A stretch of DNA of 64,000 bases from Fervidobacterium thailandense (GTDB lineage Bacteria; Thermotogota; Thermotogae; Thermotogales; Fervidobacteriaceae). Numbering within the stretch: the stretch's first letter is position 1; each line of letters starts with the position of its first letter. The stretch covers positions 1 through 64,000 of the forward strand of contig NZ_LWAF01000009.1 of assembly GCF_001719065.1 (NCBI RefSeq), read 5' to 3'. A model generated the notes under the pieces. The model ran no database searches and had not been told where the DNA came from. It saw nothing but the letters and a program-made list of their open reading frames with translations. Below, piece by piece: positions 1-6,195 of this stretch. A program made the translations under genes and the position numbers.

Positions 1-691
1 TGACCCAGAAGTTGATTTTGGTATCAGAGGATGCCATAGTGAAAGGTTTCCATCTCTTTCAGAGAGAAGTTCCTTCCTGACTGTTTACGTCGACGACGTA
101 CTGTCCGTGTTACGAAGACTTGTTTCCATCTCTTTCAGAGAGAAGTTCCTTCCTGACGTGTACAAAATTCAGTTTATCGGTAGTCAGAAAAACGAAAGTT
201 TCCATCTCTTTCAGAGAGAAGTTCCTTCCTGACAGTGACGTTCGTTGGGCAGGGCTGGAACTTCCGCCCAGGGTTTCCATCTCTTTCAGAGAGAAGTTCC
301 TTCCTGACACGGAAAGAAGAGTGTTTGAGAAAAAGTTCAACATTACGTGTTTCCATCTCTTTCAGAGAGAAGTTCCTTCCTGACTCATGGTTATAAAGGA
401 GTTAGATGAAAGGGAGGCATTGAAGTTTCCATCTCTTTCAGAGAGAAGTTCCTTCCTGACTCATGGTTATAAAGGAGTTAGATGAAAGGGAGGCATTGAA
501 GTTTCCATCTCTTTCAGAGAGAAGTTCCTTCCTGACTGCTCTTTGACTGGCCCGGTCAAAGAGCTAGGCAGGGAGGGTGTTTCCATCTCTTTCAGAGAGA
601 AGTTCCTTCCTGACGATATTACCGTCTACGACGACAACGGAAACATCATTCTACAGTTTCCATCTCTTTCAGAGAGAAGTTCCTTCCTGAC
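1..691 (-). CRISPR. CRISPR array, right-hand end (9 full repeats, 9 spacers)
   Basis: Nine identical 36-nt repeats start at 46, 122, 198, 273, 349, 425, 501, 579 and 656; bases 1-4 (TGAC) are the tail of a tenth cut by the window edge. Spacers are 39-42 nt. On the plus strand the repeat begins GTTTCCATCTC and ends CTTCCTGAC. I assign the minus strand as transcribed because there the repeat ends AGAGATGGAAAC, the ATGGAAAC/ATTGAAAC type 8-nt 5' tag typical of type I and III systems, preceded by a small stem (TCTCT-GAA-AGAGA). The leader would then be the AT-rich flank to the right, and the last repeat on that side is intact. Two neighbouring spacers (385-424 and 461-500) are identical. No cas gene lies in the window, so the type is not determined. 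Short reading frames overlapping the array are artefacts of the repeat. Confidence 0.98.
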
Positions 692-1270: not shown

Positions 1271-1285
1271 TTGGAGGTGAACGGT

Positions 1286-1990
1286 ATGTCAAGGACACAA
1301 AATGGCGGCGGTCAGGTGCTGTTCGGTGAGCCTATCAGACCGATACGCTATTACGATCTTTACGGCAACTGGACAGCCGGTGTTGCTCTATCGGTCTACC
1401 AAATACACGACCCACGTTTTCCCCAGGTGAGATCTCCGCTCGGAAAGCTCCTCTACAAACTCAAGTATGAGAAAGATATTTCGGTTCTTGACAAAATAGC
1501 GCAAACTGTAGCACTCGCGGTCAAGAGACTCAAAGTCTACCCGGAACTTGACGCAATTGTCCCAGTTCCTCCATCAAAACTAAACCGCGAATTTCAGCCA
1601 GTAATTGAGCTTGCAAAGCGCGTTAGCGAATACACTGGAATCCCGCTGGAGCTGAATTACCTTGTCAAAATCAAGAAAACACCAGAAATGAAGAGGTTCA
1701 AAAATCAATCAAGAAAGTTAAAGCTCTTGAGGGATTCCTACGCAGTTATAGGGAACGGATTGGAAGGAAAAACCGTGCTCCTGTTCGATGACATATACGA
1801 TACTGGAGCAACACTCACAGCCTGCACCGAGAAGTTACTCTCGGAAGGAAAGGTAAGAAGAGTATACGTACTAACGGTGGCAAAAACCTGGCCTTGTCCC
1901 AACTATGAACCCACAAAAGTTCATTGCGGAAAATGCTGGTTATCCATGAAACGATTTAAAAGTACTCAAGACGGAAATCAAGATCTTTGA
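1286..1990 (+). CDS. ComF-like phosphoribosyltransferase
   Basis: Type I phosphoribosyltransferase fold of the ComF/amidophosphoribosyltransferase-like group. The PRPP-binding loop FDDIYDTGAT is at about residues 167-176, and VPVPPSK at about 93-99 fits the usual first conserved strand. Three cysteines near the C-terminus (about 204, 214, 217) could bind metal. There is no N-terminal four-cysteine finger of classical ComF. I take ATG 1286 as the start because GGAGGTG lies 6 nt before it; an upstream in-frame TTG at 1271 lacks such a site. First gene of a tight plus-strand set with a small membrane protein and a DprA-like protein. Role could be DNA uptake or, given the CRISPR neighbour, a nucleotide-based immune cassette; the substrate cannot be read from sequence. 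Confidence 0.8.
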   Translation: MSRTQNGGGQVLFGEPIRPIRYYDLYGNWTAGVALSVYQIHDPRFPQVRSPLGKLLYKLKYEKDISVLDKIAQTVALAVKRLKVYPELDAIVPVPPSKLNREFQPVIELAKRVSEYTGIPLELNYLVKIKKTPEMKRFKNQSRKLKLLRDSYAVIGNGLEGKTVLLFDDIYDTGATLTACTEKLLSEGKVRRVYVLTVAKTWPCPNYEPTKVHCGKCWLSMKRFKSTQDGNQDL

Positions 1991-2013
1991 AAATCAGAAA
2001 GGAGGTTTGCCGT

Positions 2014-2541
2014 ATGCCCATGGGATTTTTTGGATACACACCCGATGAAATAACAGAATTCTTCGAGATAGCTGAAGAACACAAGGAAATCCACGCCTTG
2101 TACCTCAAATATGTGCTCAAATGGCGCTGGTTTGCATCGTTTTTCGGCGCTTTCATATTGTCGGCTTTACTCGACCCAATTATCATCAGGACAATCTACG
2201 GTGGGAGCTTTCTCAAGTATTTCGTATCTTTGTTCATAACTTATTCGGTGGCTATATCTGTTTTGTCGGGAGATTGGTATCACGTGATTATGCTGTTTAA
2301 TTTCAGTAAGAACAAAAAGCTGAAAATCAAGGCTGCTATGAACGTTATCGTTACATCACTTATCCAATCGACTCTTAATATAGCATTTTTAACACTTTTC
2401 GTAATAGTTCTGAGGTATAATCTTATGCAGCTGATGCTTACAATTAACGACAGGTACAATGTACCTCTTGAGATGTTCAACGGAATTTTCAAAAACGTGC
2501 CGTTTGTGATCTTGCATTATCTTCTACTTGAAACAACGTAA
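2014..2541 (+). CDS. Small multi-pass membrane protein of unknown function
   Basis: About 175 residues. Hydrophobic segments at about 38-58, 66-86 and 110-135, plus a hydrophobic C-terminal helix, suggest three or four membrane passes; the first 35 residues are polar and charged (helical, cytoplasmic by inference). I recognise no family. ATG 2014 is chosen because AAGGAGGT sits 8-9 nt upstream; the longer in-frame TTG start at 1987 would overlap the phosphoribosyltransferase stop. It lies between the phosphoribosyltransferase and the DprA-like gene on the same strand with short gaps, so it is probably the membrane component of that cassette. In effector-type systems such a protein is often the membrane-damaging part, but that is inference only. 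Confidence 0.7.
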   Translation: MPMGFFGYTPDEITEFFEIAEEHKEIHALYLKYVLKWRWFASFFGAFILSALLDPIIIRTIYGGSFLKYFVSLFITYSVAISVLSGDWYHVIMLFNFSKNKKLKIKAAMNVIVTSLIQSTLNIAFLTLFVIVLRYNLMQLMLTINDRYNVPLEMFNGIFKNVPFVILHYLLLETT

Positions 2542-2597: not shown

Positions 2598-3698
2598 ATG
2601 GAGCGAATGCCAAGCACCGAAGAGCTCATTTTCATCACATTGGTTTCAGACATCGTGGATCGTTCATCTAAAAAAGCGGACTCAGGTCCCTCTGTTAGGT
2701 TAACTCGAAGGTTCTGGAATAAATTCGCCACGATCGTAAAAAGGCAGCTCGGAAGTTTGGAAATGCTCACGGAAGTAGAGGACAAAGATTTGATCGCATT
2801 GATAAAGGACGCAATGAGCTCACCGAAAAGTAAAAACTCCACGGAAAGTGCCGCCCAAGCTGAAAACATTCTAAGTTTTGTGAAGGAGAGGTGCGAGGGT
2901 GTTAGTTTGGTCGAAAGTACGCTGAAGACATTTCAGGACTTAGGTATCAAAGTTGTAACCACTTTAAATCATCAGTATCCGCACGTTTTGAAACAAAAAC
3001 TTCGTGACAGCGCTCCCCCTTTACTATACTATTCCGGTAATCTTGAGTTGTGCAACGACGAAGGAGTAGCAATTGTTGGTTCACGCCAACCGAATCCTAA
3101 TGCCGTTGCAGTCGCTCAAAAACTCGCGCAAACCTGTGCCACGGAAGGGATTGTTGTTGTCTCAGGTGGTGCCAGAGGAATTGACTCTGAAGCGCACAAT
3201 ACAGCTCTTGAATACGGTGGAAATACCGTAGTTTTCCTTTCTTGTGAAATGTTGGACATTCTTACGTGCGCTTTTAGAAAGAGGTGTTCTGACAATCGTA
3301 GGTTTGTTCTAAACGCGAGGACGTTGATTGATGAGGGAAGACTACTCCTAATCTCGGCTGTTCATCCAAACGCTAAGTTCTTCACCGGTAACGCTATGGA
3401 TAGAAACAAGTTTATCTACGCTCTCTCCAAAATTGCGTTCGTAGTTGCGGCAAACGAATCGGGAGGAACCATCACCGGTGCAAAGGAAAATCTGAAGCAT
3501 AACTACTCTCAACTTTGGGTCGTTGAGTACGACTTATCGAAAACTGACGACGGAACACCACCTGGAAATAAAACATTACTAAAAACGGGAAAGGTCAAAC
3601 GTGTCTTGGAAAGCGAGATTCTATCCAATCAGTTTTCGGTGAAAAGTGTTCTTGGTAAAGATTACATATTTGATCGTGGGCTTTTTGACTTCCAATAA
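2598..3698 (+). CDS. DprA/SLOG-like Rossmann-fold protein
   Basis: 366 residues. The C-terminal two thirds carry the DprA (Smf) Rossmann-like core: VAIVGSR at about 157-163, SGGARGIDSEAH at about 189-200, GNAMDRN at about 264-270 and SGGTITGAKEN at about 288-298. The region GNAMDRNKFIYALS stands where classical DprA has FPxRNRIIAGLS, so the motif is altered. The N-terminal 120 residues are not the usual SAM/helix-hairpin region that I can recognise, and the C-terminal winged helix of many DprA proteins is not obvious. Start ATG 2598 has GGAGGTGG 7 nt before it. Canonical DprA loads RecA on incoming DNA; members of the wider SLOG superfamily bind nucleotides and occur in immune cassettes. The pairing with a phosphoribosyltransferase and a membrane protein beside CRISPR favours the second reading without proving it. 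Confidence 0.82.
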   Translation: MERMPSTEELIFITLVSDIVDRSSKKADSGPSVRLTRRFWNKFATIVKRQLGSLEMLTEVEDKDLIALIKDAMSSPKSKNSTESAAQAENILSFVKERCEGVSLVESTLKTFQDLGIKVVTTLNHQYPHVLKQKLRDSAPPLLYYSGNLELCNDEGVAIVGSRQPNPNAVAVAQKLAQTCATEGIVVVSGGARGIDSEAHNTALEYGGNTVVFLSCEMLDILTCAFRKRCSDNRRFVLNARTLIDEGRLLLISAVHPNAKFFTGNAMDRNKFIYALSKIAFVVAANESGGTITGAKENLKHNYSQLWVVEYDLSKTDDGTPPGNKTLLKTGKVKRVLESEILSNQFSVKSVLGKDYIFDRGLFDFQ

Positions 3699-3717
3699 TT
3701 TTTGAGAATGATTTTCA

Positions 3718-3749
3718 AACCCCCGGGAGAGTATCCCGGGGGTTTTTGG
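3718..3749 (+). terminator. Rho-independent terminator after the DprA-like gene
   Basis: Perfect 11-bp stem, AACCCCCGGGA (3718-3728) with its complement (3734-3744), 5-nt loop, then TTTTTGGTTT. It closes the three-gene cassette before the RNA region. Confidence 0.93.
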
Positions 3750-3761
3750 TTTAACTTGGTA

Positions 3762-3791
3762 TTGACAAAAGTTTGGTCTGAAGGATATAAT
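3762..3791 (+). promoter_or_regulatory. Consensus sigma-70-type promoter of the crRNA-like RNA
   Basis: TTGACA at 3762-3767 and TATAAT at 3786-3791, both perfect, 18 nt apart. The expected start of transcription (about 3797-3801) falls at the first base of the CRISPR-repeat segment, so the promoter seems placed to produce that RNA and not a protein gene. Confidence 0.88.
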
Positions 3792-3797
3792 TTAACC

Positions 3798-3894
3798 AGA
3801 TTCTCTCTGAAAGAGATGGAAACAAGAAAATATTGAGAAGAAACTTTGACCTTCGAAACGTCAACTCCCTTGGTAAGGGAGTTGTTTTTTATTT
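3798..3894 (+). ncRNA. Orphan crRNA-like small RNA (CRISPR half-repeat, spacer-like segment, terminator)
   Basis: Bases 3801-3823 are identical to the last 23 nt of the array repeat in its presumed transcribed sense: the small stem (TCTCT-GAA-AGAGA, 3804-3816) and the tag ATGGAAAC (3816-3823). The first 13 nt of the repeat are missing because transcription would begin there. A unique segment of 36-38 nt follows (3824-3861; array spacers are 39-42 nt), then a perfect 10-bp terminator stem (3862-3871 with 3875-3884) and TTTTTTATTTT. No second full repeat is seen; only GTCA at 3860-3863 recalls the start of one. The unit thus looks like a minimal single-spacer CRISPR gene with its own promoter and terminator. 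Its spacer-like segment is complementary to 4077-4099 in the next element. If the array were instead transcribed from the plus strand, the same bases would be an anti-repeat (tracrRNA-like), which I judge less likely. Confidence 0.75.
3862..3894 (+). terminator. Terminator of the crRNA-like RNA
   Basis: CAACTCCCTT (3862-3871), 3-nt loop GGT, perfect complement (3875-3884), then six T and a further T-rich run. Textbook intrinsic terminator. Confidence 0.92.
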
Positions 3895-3907
3895 TGGTCT
3901 TTAAAAA

Positions 3908-3938
3908 TTGAAAAGTTCGTGTATCCACGAATTACAAT
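3908..3938 (+). promoter_or_regulatory. Possible promoter and palindrome before the structured element
   Basis: TTGAAA at 3908-3913 and TACAAT at 3933-3938 are 19 nt apart, longer than ideal. The spacer holds a 6-bp palindrome, TTCGTG (3916-3921) with CACGAA (3926-3931), which might be an operator or an RNA hairpin. Read-through of the preceding terminator is an alternative source of transcript. Confidence 0.4.
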
Positions 3939-4260
3939 CAAGAACACTCATCTCCGCAGCGTGGCGGAGACACACTGATACGAAAGACCTTAGACAGAGA
4001 CACCCACAAACGCTACGTATACCGATAGAACTTAACGCGGTAACGTAGCGCTTTGAATGTAAAGAATTCTCTGTCTAAGGTCAAAGTTTCTTCTAAATAT
4101 CTTAATAAGTGCCTTCGTTACGATTGAACACTGATACGATTCAACGCGTAACGAAGGCACTTGTACAAATACATACAAACACTCCGCCACGCTGCGGGGG
4201 TTTACACTTGAAGATAAAAACAGCCCATCGGGAAAATCCACGATGGCTGTTTTTGTTTTT
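3938..4260 (+). ncRNA. Large structured element, probable non-coding RNA with three long helices
   Basis: No plausible protein. Nested helices: P1 pairs 3954-3969 with 4182-4197 (16 bp, perfect) and extends outward to 3950/4201 through two T-G wobble pairs; an outer TCAAG (3938-3942) can meet CTTGA (4207-4211). Inside, P2 pairs 3986-4000 with 4068-4082 (15 bp) and carries a hairpin 4007-4055 (4+8+4 bp with single-base bulges). P3 is a 16-bp hairpin, 4107-4122 with 4147-4162, plus an inner 5-bp stem. ACACTGATACGA occurs twice, in the junction (3972-3983) and in the P3 loop (4128-4139), and the two hairpin loops share AACGCG and GATA motifs. Wobble pairs argue for an RNA and not only a DNA palindrome. 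A strong terminator ends it. I recognise no known RNA family. It could also be a DNA-level inverted-repeat element. Confidence 0.65.
4216..4260. terminator. Bidirectional terminator
   Basis: Stem AAAAACAG/CCATCG (4216-4230, one bulged C) pairs with CGATGGCTGTTTTT (4241-4254), followed by TTTTGTTTTT on the plus strand. On the minus strand the A-run gives a T-tail, so it probably also ends the hydrolase operon at 4270. Confidence 0.88.
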
Positions 4261-4269
4261 ACCTAATCC

Positions 4270-5208
4270 TCAATCACGCAGGAACTTGACAACGATTTCA
4301 ACAAAACGCTCATTAAACATTGGCAAGTGACCTTCTCCGTCGATTAACTCGAATCGTGAGTTTTTTATTCTCTTTGAGAGGTACTCACCTATAGCTGGTG
4401 GTGTTACGTTGTCATTGCTACCGTAAATTATCAAAGTCTGTGCACTGATTTTTCCCAGGTCGTGTTCGAACGGCTCCTGTGCTATTTTGTCCTTTGAGAA
4501 CTTTATCAGAACCTCCGCTGGCAAAAAGATATTTTGTACAAAAGTTTTATCCAGATGTTCTTGACGCACGCGGTCCAGTTTTGGAACCAGGTTGCTGTAA
4601 ACGTTCCGAATCAACGGGTACGCTTTCAATCCGAGGTTCAGGATAGTCGAAAGATTTTCATCGTCAAGGTTAGCAGTCCAAGATCGACCGCCATTTCTCA
4701 AAATCTCCATAAGCTCAGAATCGTCCTGTTCCAAGGGAAGATACGCAGCAGAAACGAGAACGAGCTTTTCTATGCGCTCCGGGACGGTACTTGCAATGAG
4801 TATCGCAAGGTTGCCCCCCATGGAATGTCCAATGAGAGAGAATTTTTTCACTCCAAGTTTGTCAACGAGCATCAATATGGTTTTTATCAGGTTCGCATCA
4901 GAGTAGTCAAACCCAAGTTTTTTCTCCGATAGTCCAAAAGGTGGAATGTCTATAAGCAAGCAGTGCCCAATATTACGAAGCTCCTTAACCAGAAACTCCC
5001 AGTCAGTGGAAGATCCAGCAAAACCGTGGAGCAGAACGAAAGTTTTTTCGCCTGTCACGTTACTTTTGTAGTATTTGTAGGCAATCTTTATTTGATTTAC
5101 CTCGGCGACTTGAACATCCACCCTCAGCTGAGATTCGATCTTGAGTACGTTCAGAGAAAGTGTCAAGAAATAAGCCAAAAGGCCAAGCAGAATAGTTTTG
5201 AATACCAC
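4270..5208 (-). CDS. Alpha/beta hydrolase, exported or membrane-anchored (copy 1)
   Basis: 312 residues. A hydrophobic N-terminus (about 4-24) looks like a signal peptide or anchor. Oxyanion-hole motif LLHGFAGSSTDW at about 59-70, nucleophile elbow GHSMGG near residue 126, acid in IYGSNDNVTPP and the catalytic His in GEGHLPMF near the C-terminus: a complete Ser-Asp-His set. Starts with GTG after GAGGAGAG. It is a paralogue of the upstream gene at 5236-6195, 27 bp away, and the two probably form one transcript. Substrate (ester, lactone or lipid) cannot be told; the epoxide-hydrolase/lipase-like groups share these motifs. Confidence 0.88.
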   Translation of the reverse strand: MVFKTILLGLLAYFLTLSLNVLKIESQLRVDVQVAEVNQIKIAYKYYKSNVTGEKTFVLLHGFAGSSTDWEFLVKELRNIGHCLLIDIPPFGLSEKKLGFDYSDANLIKTILMLVDKLGVKKFSLIGHSMGGNLAILIASTVPERIEKLVLVSAAYLPLEQDDSELMEILRNGGRSWTANLDDENLSTILNLGLKAYPLIRNVYSNLVPKLDRVRQEHLDKTFVQNIFLPAEVLIKFSKDKIAQEPFEHDLGKISAQTLIIYGSNDNVTPPAIGEYLSKRIKNSRFELIDGEGHLPMFNERFVEIVVKFLRD

Positions 5209-5235
5209 GGCAATCTCTCCTCTACTATCATTTCT

Positions 5236-6195
5236 TCATTTTGAAAAGCTAAGTAAAAACTCGGTTATCAGTGCCACACACCTTTGGTCAAACATCAGCA
5301 AATGTTCACCGCCATCAACGAGAACAAGGTGAGAATTCTTGATTCTTTTTGACAAAAACTCTCCGATTTTCGGTGATACAATTGCGTCGTTTGTGCCAAA
5401 AATTATAAGTGTTTCAGCGTTAATTTTGGAGAAGTCAAGATGATAGGGTGGCTGCTTTATCTTGTCGATGGTGAACTTTAACCACACTTCGCCAGGAATG
5501 AAGTAGTTCTGAACAAACGTTAGTTCGAGGTGCTTTTCCCGAACCTTCTCAAGGCGCGGTTTTGAACCTTGGTAGAGGAAACGGAAAGCGGGGTAGAATT
5601 TCAGGCTTCCATCGAGCATCGTAGCCAGCAGTCTTGTACCTGACCTCGACAGGTTGACTCCATTCAACAAGTTTTCTTCGTGTTCGTAATCGATTTGCGA
5701 GCTTTCTTTACCAGTCCCAATTTTAAAGGCTGCCGGGGCAATCAGGACGAGTTTCTCGACTTTCTCCGGAACCGCGCTTGCAATTAAGAGCGAGAGTTGG
5801 CCTCCCATGGAGTGTCCGATTAAGTTGAACCTATCGATCCCAAGCTTGTCCAAAAATGCCAAGAGCAGTTCCATCGTATTCTCGTCCGAATAATCAAAAT
5901 CCCTGCTTTTTTCGGATAAACCAAACGGTGGAACGTCGATTAATATGCACCTTCCAAATTTCCGAACGTTTTCAACTACGAGCATCCAGTCAACCGAAGA
6001 ACCTCCTAGCCCATGGAGAAAGACGAAGACCCTGTCCGGGGCATAGGGGTTTTTGTAGTCCCGATAAGCAACCTTTATGCCGTTTACTTCGAGGTATTTG
6101 AGCTCAGTCTGGAGCGAGGACTTTATCCCCTGAACATTTAAGAATGCGATCAGCAACGAAACGAGTGCACTGAAAATGAGAGTTCGAGCTACCAT
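5236..6195 (-). CDS. Alpha/beta hydrolase, exported or membrane-anchored (copy 2)
   Basis: 319 residues with the same architecture as its neighbour: hydrophobic N-terminus, FLHGLGGSSVDW, nucleophile GHSMGG, acid in IFGTNDAIVSPK and catalytic His in GGEHLLMF. The shared blocks (PPFGLSEK, FDYSDENT, VRE/VRQEHL) show a tandem duplication followed by marked divergence. ATG start; the upstream gap to ppdK (6196-6403) must hold its promoter, divergent from that of ppdK. Function beyond hydrolase is unassigned. Confidence 0.88.
   Translation of the reverse strand: MVARTLIFSALVSLLIAFLNVQGIKSSLQTELKYLEVNGIKVAYRDYKNPYAPDRVFVFLHGLGGSSVDWMLVVENVRKFGRCILIDVPPFGLSEKSRDFDYSDENTMELLLAFLDKLGIDRFNLIGHSMGGQLSLLIASAVPEKVEKLVLIAPAAFKIGTGKESSQIDYEHEENLLNGVNLSRSGTRLLATMLDGSLKFYPAFRFLYQGSKPRLEKVREKHLELTFVQNYFIPGEVWLKFTIDKIKQPPYHLDFSKINAETLIIFGTNDAIVSPKIGEFLSKRIKNSHLVLVDGGEHLLMFDQRCVALITEFLLSFSK

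Follow-up and report, generated by a model that had tools for sequence, protein, structure and literature searches.

A crRNA-like guide gene complementary to a neighbouring structured RNA in Fervidobacterium thailandense: a possible type III (Cmr) counterpart of CreTA

The window analysed here, a stretch of 64,000 nt at the start of a contig of Fervidobacterium thailandense, opens with a CRISPR array and continues with a cassette of three protein-coding genes, beyond which two predicted RNA genes lie on the same strand (Table 1). The upstream RNA gene is composed of a lone CRISPR repeat and a spacer-like segment (the guide), and the downstream one encodes a structured RNA to which the guide is complementary. 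Beyond the RNA pair, the minus strand encodes two alpha/beta hydrolase paralogues in tandem (4270–6195).

Table 1. Features of the locus (positions in the window).
Feature	Position	Strand	Basis
CRISPR array at contig start, 9 repeats GTCAGGAAGGAACTTCTCTCTGAAAGAGATGGAAAC, class of the lone repeat	46..691	-	repeat comparison
Phosphoribosyltransferase (PRTase) of the PsyrT (4.7e-20, match confined to the PRTase part) / ShosT (1.3e-12) family; possible effector nearby	1271..1990	+	family profile match
Predicted membrane protein, 184 aa, no family	1987..2541	+	translation
DprA-like protein, PsyrA (8.7e-73) / ShosA (1e-34) family	2598..3698	+	family profile match
Guide-gene promoter, TTGACA, 18 nt, TATAAT	3762..3791	+	promoter scan; 12/12 sigma-70 consensus
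Ectopic CRISPR repeat, 3' 23 nt only	3801..3823	+	identity to array repeat
Guide, a spacer-like segment of 36 nt; window base 4107-n lies opposite guide position n	3824..3859	+	base-by-base check
Intrinsic terminator of the crRNA-like transcript, 10-bp stem, TTTTTTATTTT	3862..3892	+	terminator scan and sequence
Candidate structured-RNA promoter, TTGAAA, 19 nt, TACAAT	3908..3938	+	by eye; uncalled by the scanner (spacing limit 18)
Structured RNA (target), about 315 nt	3945..4262	+	folding, z -16
Stem P1, 20 bp, closing stem around P2/P3 and P4	3950-3969/4182-4201	+	predicted fold
Stem P2, 15 bp	3986-4000/4068-4082	+	predicted fold
Stem P3	within 4007-4051	+	predicted fold
Target site of the guide, 27/30 complementary; core 4077-4094 perfect	4074..4103	+	base pairing
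Stem P4, 18 bp	about 4105-4122/4147-4164	+	predicted fold
Structured-RNA terminator, bidirectional; convergent gene on the other side	4210..4262	+	sequence and fold

The segment 3798–3892 is a one-unit crRNA-like gene. Its transcript is expected to start near 3798. In comparison with the repeat of the array in the window, the lone repeat is identical over the last 23 nt (23/23) and agrees at only 3 of the first 13 nt; the predicted Cas6 hairpin and the 8-nt 5' tag ATGGAAAC (3816–3823) are both kept. As known crRNA maturation suggests, Cas6 cutting and formation of the crRNA 5' end should both depend on this part of a repeat. The original prediction, made from the sequence alone, had called the adjacent segment spacer-like, and this label is justified by the identity of 3801–3823 with the 3' part of the array repeat. 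Within the genome, the lone repeat is the only match to its repeat outside arrays, all the other matches being located in regularly spaced clusters.

The genome (2.04 Mb in 55 contigs) contains a complete III-B operon on contig C4 (159636–167922), which encodes a TM1812-type CARF protein, Cmr6, Cmr5, Cmr4, Cmr3, Cas10 (798 aa, with an intact GGDD motif) and a RAMP protein in the Cmr1 position. Near this operon are genes for at least three effectors of the cOA type, two CARF and one SAVED (L072, 9491–15959). One is the TM1812-type CARF protein of the operon itself; the CARF-CYTH-HD protein (4.7e-280) and the SAVED protein are encoded next to it. Arrays of the lone-repeat class were found at the end of C4, about 10 kb from the Cmr operon. 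Arrays of the class also adjoin Cas6 on C26 and flank a Cas1/Cas2/argonaute/PrimPol cluster on C25 on either side. The I-B system, located on C27, has a different repeat (GTTTGTAGCGTCCCTATGAGGGATTGAAAC) and a different tag (ATTGAAAC). Since arrays of the same class share a contig with the Cmr operon and the I-B repeat differs, the lone repeat was assigned to the III-B class.

Several further observations concern the arrays of this class. The cluster on C25 (L068, 1664–7569) comprises genes for Cas1, Cas2, a Thermotoga-type argonaute and a CRISPR-associated PrimPol between two same-class arrays, and also holds a gene for a viperin-like radical SAM protein that scores below NCBI's cut-off. Between the PrimPol gene and the CRISPR array (L068, 7744–14527) are genes for a 1525-aa protein resembling fused pieces of the RNA polymerase beta and beta' subunits, an unknown protein of 258 aa and an RtcR-like sigma-54 activator. 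The spacers of the class are rich in perfect hairpins with a stem of at least 8 bp and a loop of 3–9 nt (13 of 153 distinct spacers vs. 0.07% in shuffles; arrays at 46–691 of the window and at L010, L011, L013, L022, L037, and L069). These spacers resemble terminators or palindromes and hint at the way in which spacers are chosen by the system. In the array of the window, two neighbouring spacers (386–521) are identical.

The structured RNA stands out by its predicted folding energy: the region 3905–4262 folds at -154.6 kcal/mol, against an average of -73.7 for its shuffles (z -16). The RNA contains two copies of a 12-nt motif, ACACTGATACGA, one in a junction at 3972 and one in the P4 loop at 4128, and no repeat as long as 12 nt arose in 500 shuffles. 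At 37 as well as at 70°C, most of the linker 4083–4105 is predicted to be single-stranded; six bases of the target site (4077–4082) reach into the strong stem P2. Between the hexamers of the candidate promoter there is a perfect 6+6 dyad, TTCGTG-TATC-CACGAA (3916–3931); a 19-bp spacer with a perfect dyad is a layout typical of MerR-type regulation. Comparison with Rfam gave no match at the gathering score in the window, with only weak, unrelated chance hits below the threshold. We also considered a mini-ORF toxin encoded by the structured RNA and rejected it, as no ORF with a ribosome site was seen there (an AUG-UAA at 4057 is without one).

The guide–target pairing was checked base by base, and the counts given in the original prediction proved to be exact: 22 of the 23 positions of 3831–3853 pair with 4077–4099, the lone mismatch being G3835/A4095; the unbroken run comprises 18 pairs (3836–3853); 4 of the 7 tag-proximal positions (3824–3830) are paired; and of the 8 tag positions (3816–3823), 3 match the flank of the target. 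The full complementarity exceeds this description and reaches 27 of 30 between 3827–3856 and 4074–4103. The shuffle calculation proposed together with the prediction was run with 3000 dinucleotide-preserving shuffles of both segments and placed the match well above chance (ungapped antisense score of 21, shuffle maximum of 12; p about 1.8e-8 from a Gumbel fit); a chance origin of the match was thereby ruled out. No second match of similar strength to the guide was found within the 64-kb window, and when the 513-base region was compared with the rest of the genome, CRISPR repeats were the only matches.

Guide and target lie on the same strand, about 217–220 nt apart, and differ at five positions within guide positions 1–33. 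Among positions 1–30, those unpaired are 2, 3, 6, and 12; positions 7–11, 13–17, 19–23, and 25–29 are all paired, and pairing in the 3' seed region (19–29) is perfect. All four unpaired bases fall within positions 1–5 or at multiples of six (p 0.008 if four mismatches are distributed randomly over 30 positions). This pattern is suggestive only, because the test is a post hoc one and the matched segment may just not extend to the first five positions.

A DNA search for homologues of the RNA pair found none in the genome itself or in 150 relatives, and scans of collections of genome contigs, viral contigs, plasmids and phages with an exact promoter-plus-repeat pattern found none either. With a single-sequence covariance model of the target hairpin, no clear relative was detected in 102 other genomes of the phylum, one hit being marginal (E 0.097). 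Relatives do have other lone repeats of the class, at L014 and at L029/L030, the surroundings of the repeat having the same sequence in L029 and L030. At L014 and L029, no inverted repeat was found between the sequence following the repeat and the flanks.

We propose, with moderate confidence, that the structured RNA is silenced by the crRNA-like guide through the Cmr complex. Transcription would start just 5' of the repeat hairpin, and Cas6 cutting would leave the tag, so that the processed guide RNA would begin with ATGGAAAC-AAGAAAATATTG (5' sequence ATGGAAACAAGAAAATATTG); its 3' end would be trimmed or set by the terminator. Loaded into the III-B (Cmr) complex, the guide would bind the exposed linker 4083–4105 of the structured RNA, where the Cmr4 subunits would cut. 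In the Thermus Cmr complex, target capture starts at the 3' part of the guide and every sixth guide base is unread; cOA synthesis alone requires the first seven nucleotides, and mismatches there abolish cOA synthesis but not cleavage (PMC8376896). Since guide positions 2 and 3 are unpaired, Cas10 is predicted to be off, and since mismatches occur only in the Cas10-activating region (2, 3) or at flipped-out bases (6, 12), cutting without the cOA alarm is predicted. The complex would thus perform silent housekeeping. Given at least three cOA-type effectors encoded nearby, the cell would pay a high price for an alarm triggered by a housekeeping RNA, and the mismatches would thus have a reason. 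Guide loading, target cutting and the silence of Cas10 are all steps that we infer.

Targeting of RNA (type III or plain antisense) had been preferred in the original prediction to a DNA-seed mode, and the III-B class of the repeat, the complete Cmr operon and the distinct I-B repeat all support this preference. The accompanying view that the tag offers no shield against self-recognition also stands, but it overlooked that the mismatches at positions 2 and 3 lie in the Cas10-activating region, so the alarm may be avoided. Silencing through Cmr is favoured by the match beyond chance, the 12/12 promoter and the terminator, the completely (100%) kept hairpin and tag, the III-B class, the pairing pattern and the open linker. 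On the other side, simple co-folding shows no preference for the free duplex and six of the target bases lie within the predicted stem P2; a Cas complex or co-transcriptional pairing would therefore be needed.

The open linker would equally offer a landing site to a plain antisense sRNA that acts without Cas proteins, through RNase III or refolding of P2, with the repeat as an inherited 5' stabiliser. Such an RNA would be cis-encoded at the same locus with its own promoter and terminator, and the 3' strand of P2 would be displaced. However, this explanation accounts neither for the perfect Cas6 hairpin and tag nor for the confinement of loss to the 5' part of the repeat. Furthermore, free guide–target co-folding is about neutral relative to P2 (ddG -1.8 at 37°C and -0.5 at 70°C), so pairing of this kind is not favoured, and the lowest-energy dimer does without the guide–target helix. 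We consider plain antisense action unlikely. Slightly less probable is a relic, that is, a decayed mini-array with a self-targeting spacer from the neighbouring gene, either functionless or tolerated. The guide has a spacer-like length (36 nt vs. 39–43 nt in the arrays) and five differences from its target, and self-targeting spacers are generally common (PMC8616872). Nevertheless, the second repeat is absent while the 3' part of the first is undecayed, a perfect promoter sets the transcript start at the repeat, and a strong terminator follows directly 3' of the spacer; it would also be a coincidence for a spacer to be drawn from about 220 nt away.

The remaining explanations are improbable even when taken together. 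Every studied CreA guide works with type I complexes (PMC8501985, PMC12737573), and genes for Cas3, Cas5, Cas7, and a Cas8b fragment (at a contig start) are present in the genome, which would allow CreTA-like repression at the DNA level by a type I-B Cascade. This is very improbable, given that the I-B repeat and tag differ from the lone repeat, that the target lies within a transcribed region and not at a promoter site, and that the 5' seed is mismatched at positions 2, 3, and 6, whereas CreA relies on positions 1–5 and 7–11 (PMC8501985). Being on one strand and 217 nt apart, guide and target could belong to one read-through transcript, the pairing then serving as an intramolecular switch. 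This explanation is slightly weaker still, since a strong terminator lies between them and the joined transcript, in its lowest-energy fold, does not contain the guide–target pairing. We give the least credence to a reversal of roles, in which the structured RNA would be a regulator, a sponge that titrates or blocks the crRNA-like RNA to tune Cmr loading. Complementarity is symmetric and the structured RNA is compact and stable; yet it exposes a single site, has no repeat-like sequence, and the rest of its fold would be unexplained.

Silencing through Cmr would bring the locus close to the known CRISPR-regulated modules. As in CreTA of types I-B and I-F (PMC8501985, PMC9458426), a degenerate ectopic repeat (3801–3823) with one guide and its own terminator is located outside the arrays, here with a promoter, production of the RNA itself being predicted, and the guide is partly complementary to the adjacent RNA gene (27/30). 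The likeness extends to CreA of Haloarcula hispanica, which consists of one partial repeat, one guide and a terminator next to an RNA gene and directs Cascade to repress a toxic RNA (PMC8501985). In contrast to CreTA, the repeat here is of the III-B class and the guide pairs with the RNA body, whereas CreA acts on promoter DNA that has a PAM and is read by a type I Cascade; the 3' side of the guide provides the pairing, without a 5' seed (within 1–5 and 7–11, positions 2 and 3 are mismatched, as is position 6); and the target is a predicted structured RNA of about 315 nt without a clear mini-ORF, the toxicity of which is hypothetical. CrePA, the equivalent for a protein toxin (PMC12737573), is similar in that a crRNA-like RNA would guard a suspected effector that CRISPR loss would trigger, but the immediate target here is a non-coding RNA, the possible PRTase/DprA effector being adjacent with a terminator between.

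With the crRNAs of type III-B Cmr complexes, the guide gene shares an identical repeat 3' part and 8-nt tag, and its pairing fits the 3' seed and the 6-nt periodicity (PMC8376896). The III-B-class repeat with its predicted Cas6 hairpin and tag occurs in the same genome as a complete set of Cmr complex genes. It differs from these crRNAs in being a single unit with no second repeat, in its self target and in the mismatched Cas10-activating region, where positions 2, 3, and 6 of guide positions 1–7 are unpaired. Degenerate-repeat RNAs that redirect a Cas effector to an endogenous gene are also represented by scaRNA and CreR (PMC9458426, PMC12737573); scaRNA acts on DNA through Cas9, and CreR keeps cas genes repressed, whereas a type III mode at the RNA level, directed at a neighbouring RNA, is predicted here.

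The adjacent cassette is comparable to PsyrTA/ShosTA: its PRTase gene matches PsyrT/ShosT and its DprA gene PsyrA/ShosA, although there is no RecQ helicase part and an additional membrane-protein gene is inserted between the two. The translations contain the PRPP loop LLFDDIYDTGATL and the DprA motif GGARGID. A PRTase–DprA pair is known to protect against phages, and DprA homologues serve as antitoxins (PMC9122126). A pattern search of a collection of genome contigs confirmed no DprA relatives. For the membrane protein, just one clear relative was found in the phylum; its gene (L097, 12121–15308, in G009) is flanked by RNase H-like genes and lies a short way upstream of cas1. The DprA-like gene has its own terminator (3717–3745), which separates the cassette from the RNA genes. 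No significant fold was detected beside DprA in five loci of the phylum, and two of three plasmid loci have no intergenic room for one; we therefore rejected the idea that PsyrTA normally includes such an RNA.

On top of Cmr silencing, a guard role is conceivable, though doubtful. As long as Cmr is present and free, the structured RNA would stay low; loss of Cmr, its inhibition by an anti-CRISPR or its saturation with other crRNAs would let the structured RNA accumulate and act. By analogy with H. hispanica CreA and CrePA, it may be harmful or switch on something harmful: once released, it would either be toxic itself or engage the PRTase/membrane protein/DprA cassette. Both its toxicity and the link to the cassette are speculative, and the latter is a guess, because a terminator lies between and PsyrTA loci elsewhere have no such RNA. 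Tentatively, the locus could be a type III (Cmr) counterpart of CreTA, in which the structured RNA would be sliced continuously, the mismatches would disarm the Cas10 alarm, and loss or inhibition of type III immunity would release an RNA that is toxic or triggers abortive infection through the PRTase/membrane protein/DprA cassette.

In the literature searched, the CRISPR-guarded toxin modules known (CreTA, CrePA) use type I complexes on promoter DNA. Our search for a type III CreTA found cases of types I, II, and V only, and this absence is weak evidence, as subscription papers were thinly covered. If it works as predicted, the locus would be, as far as that literature goes, the first CRISPR-controlled switch of its kind for type III. 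It would mean that RNA-cutting complexes with a dangerous cOA alarm can be used for routine silencing by leaving the Cas10-activating bases unpaired. It could also tie CRISPR to the PRTase/DprA anti-phage cassettes and would hint at how thermophiles might shield their type III systems from loss and from anti-CRISPRs.
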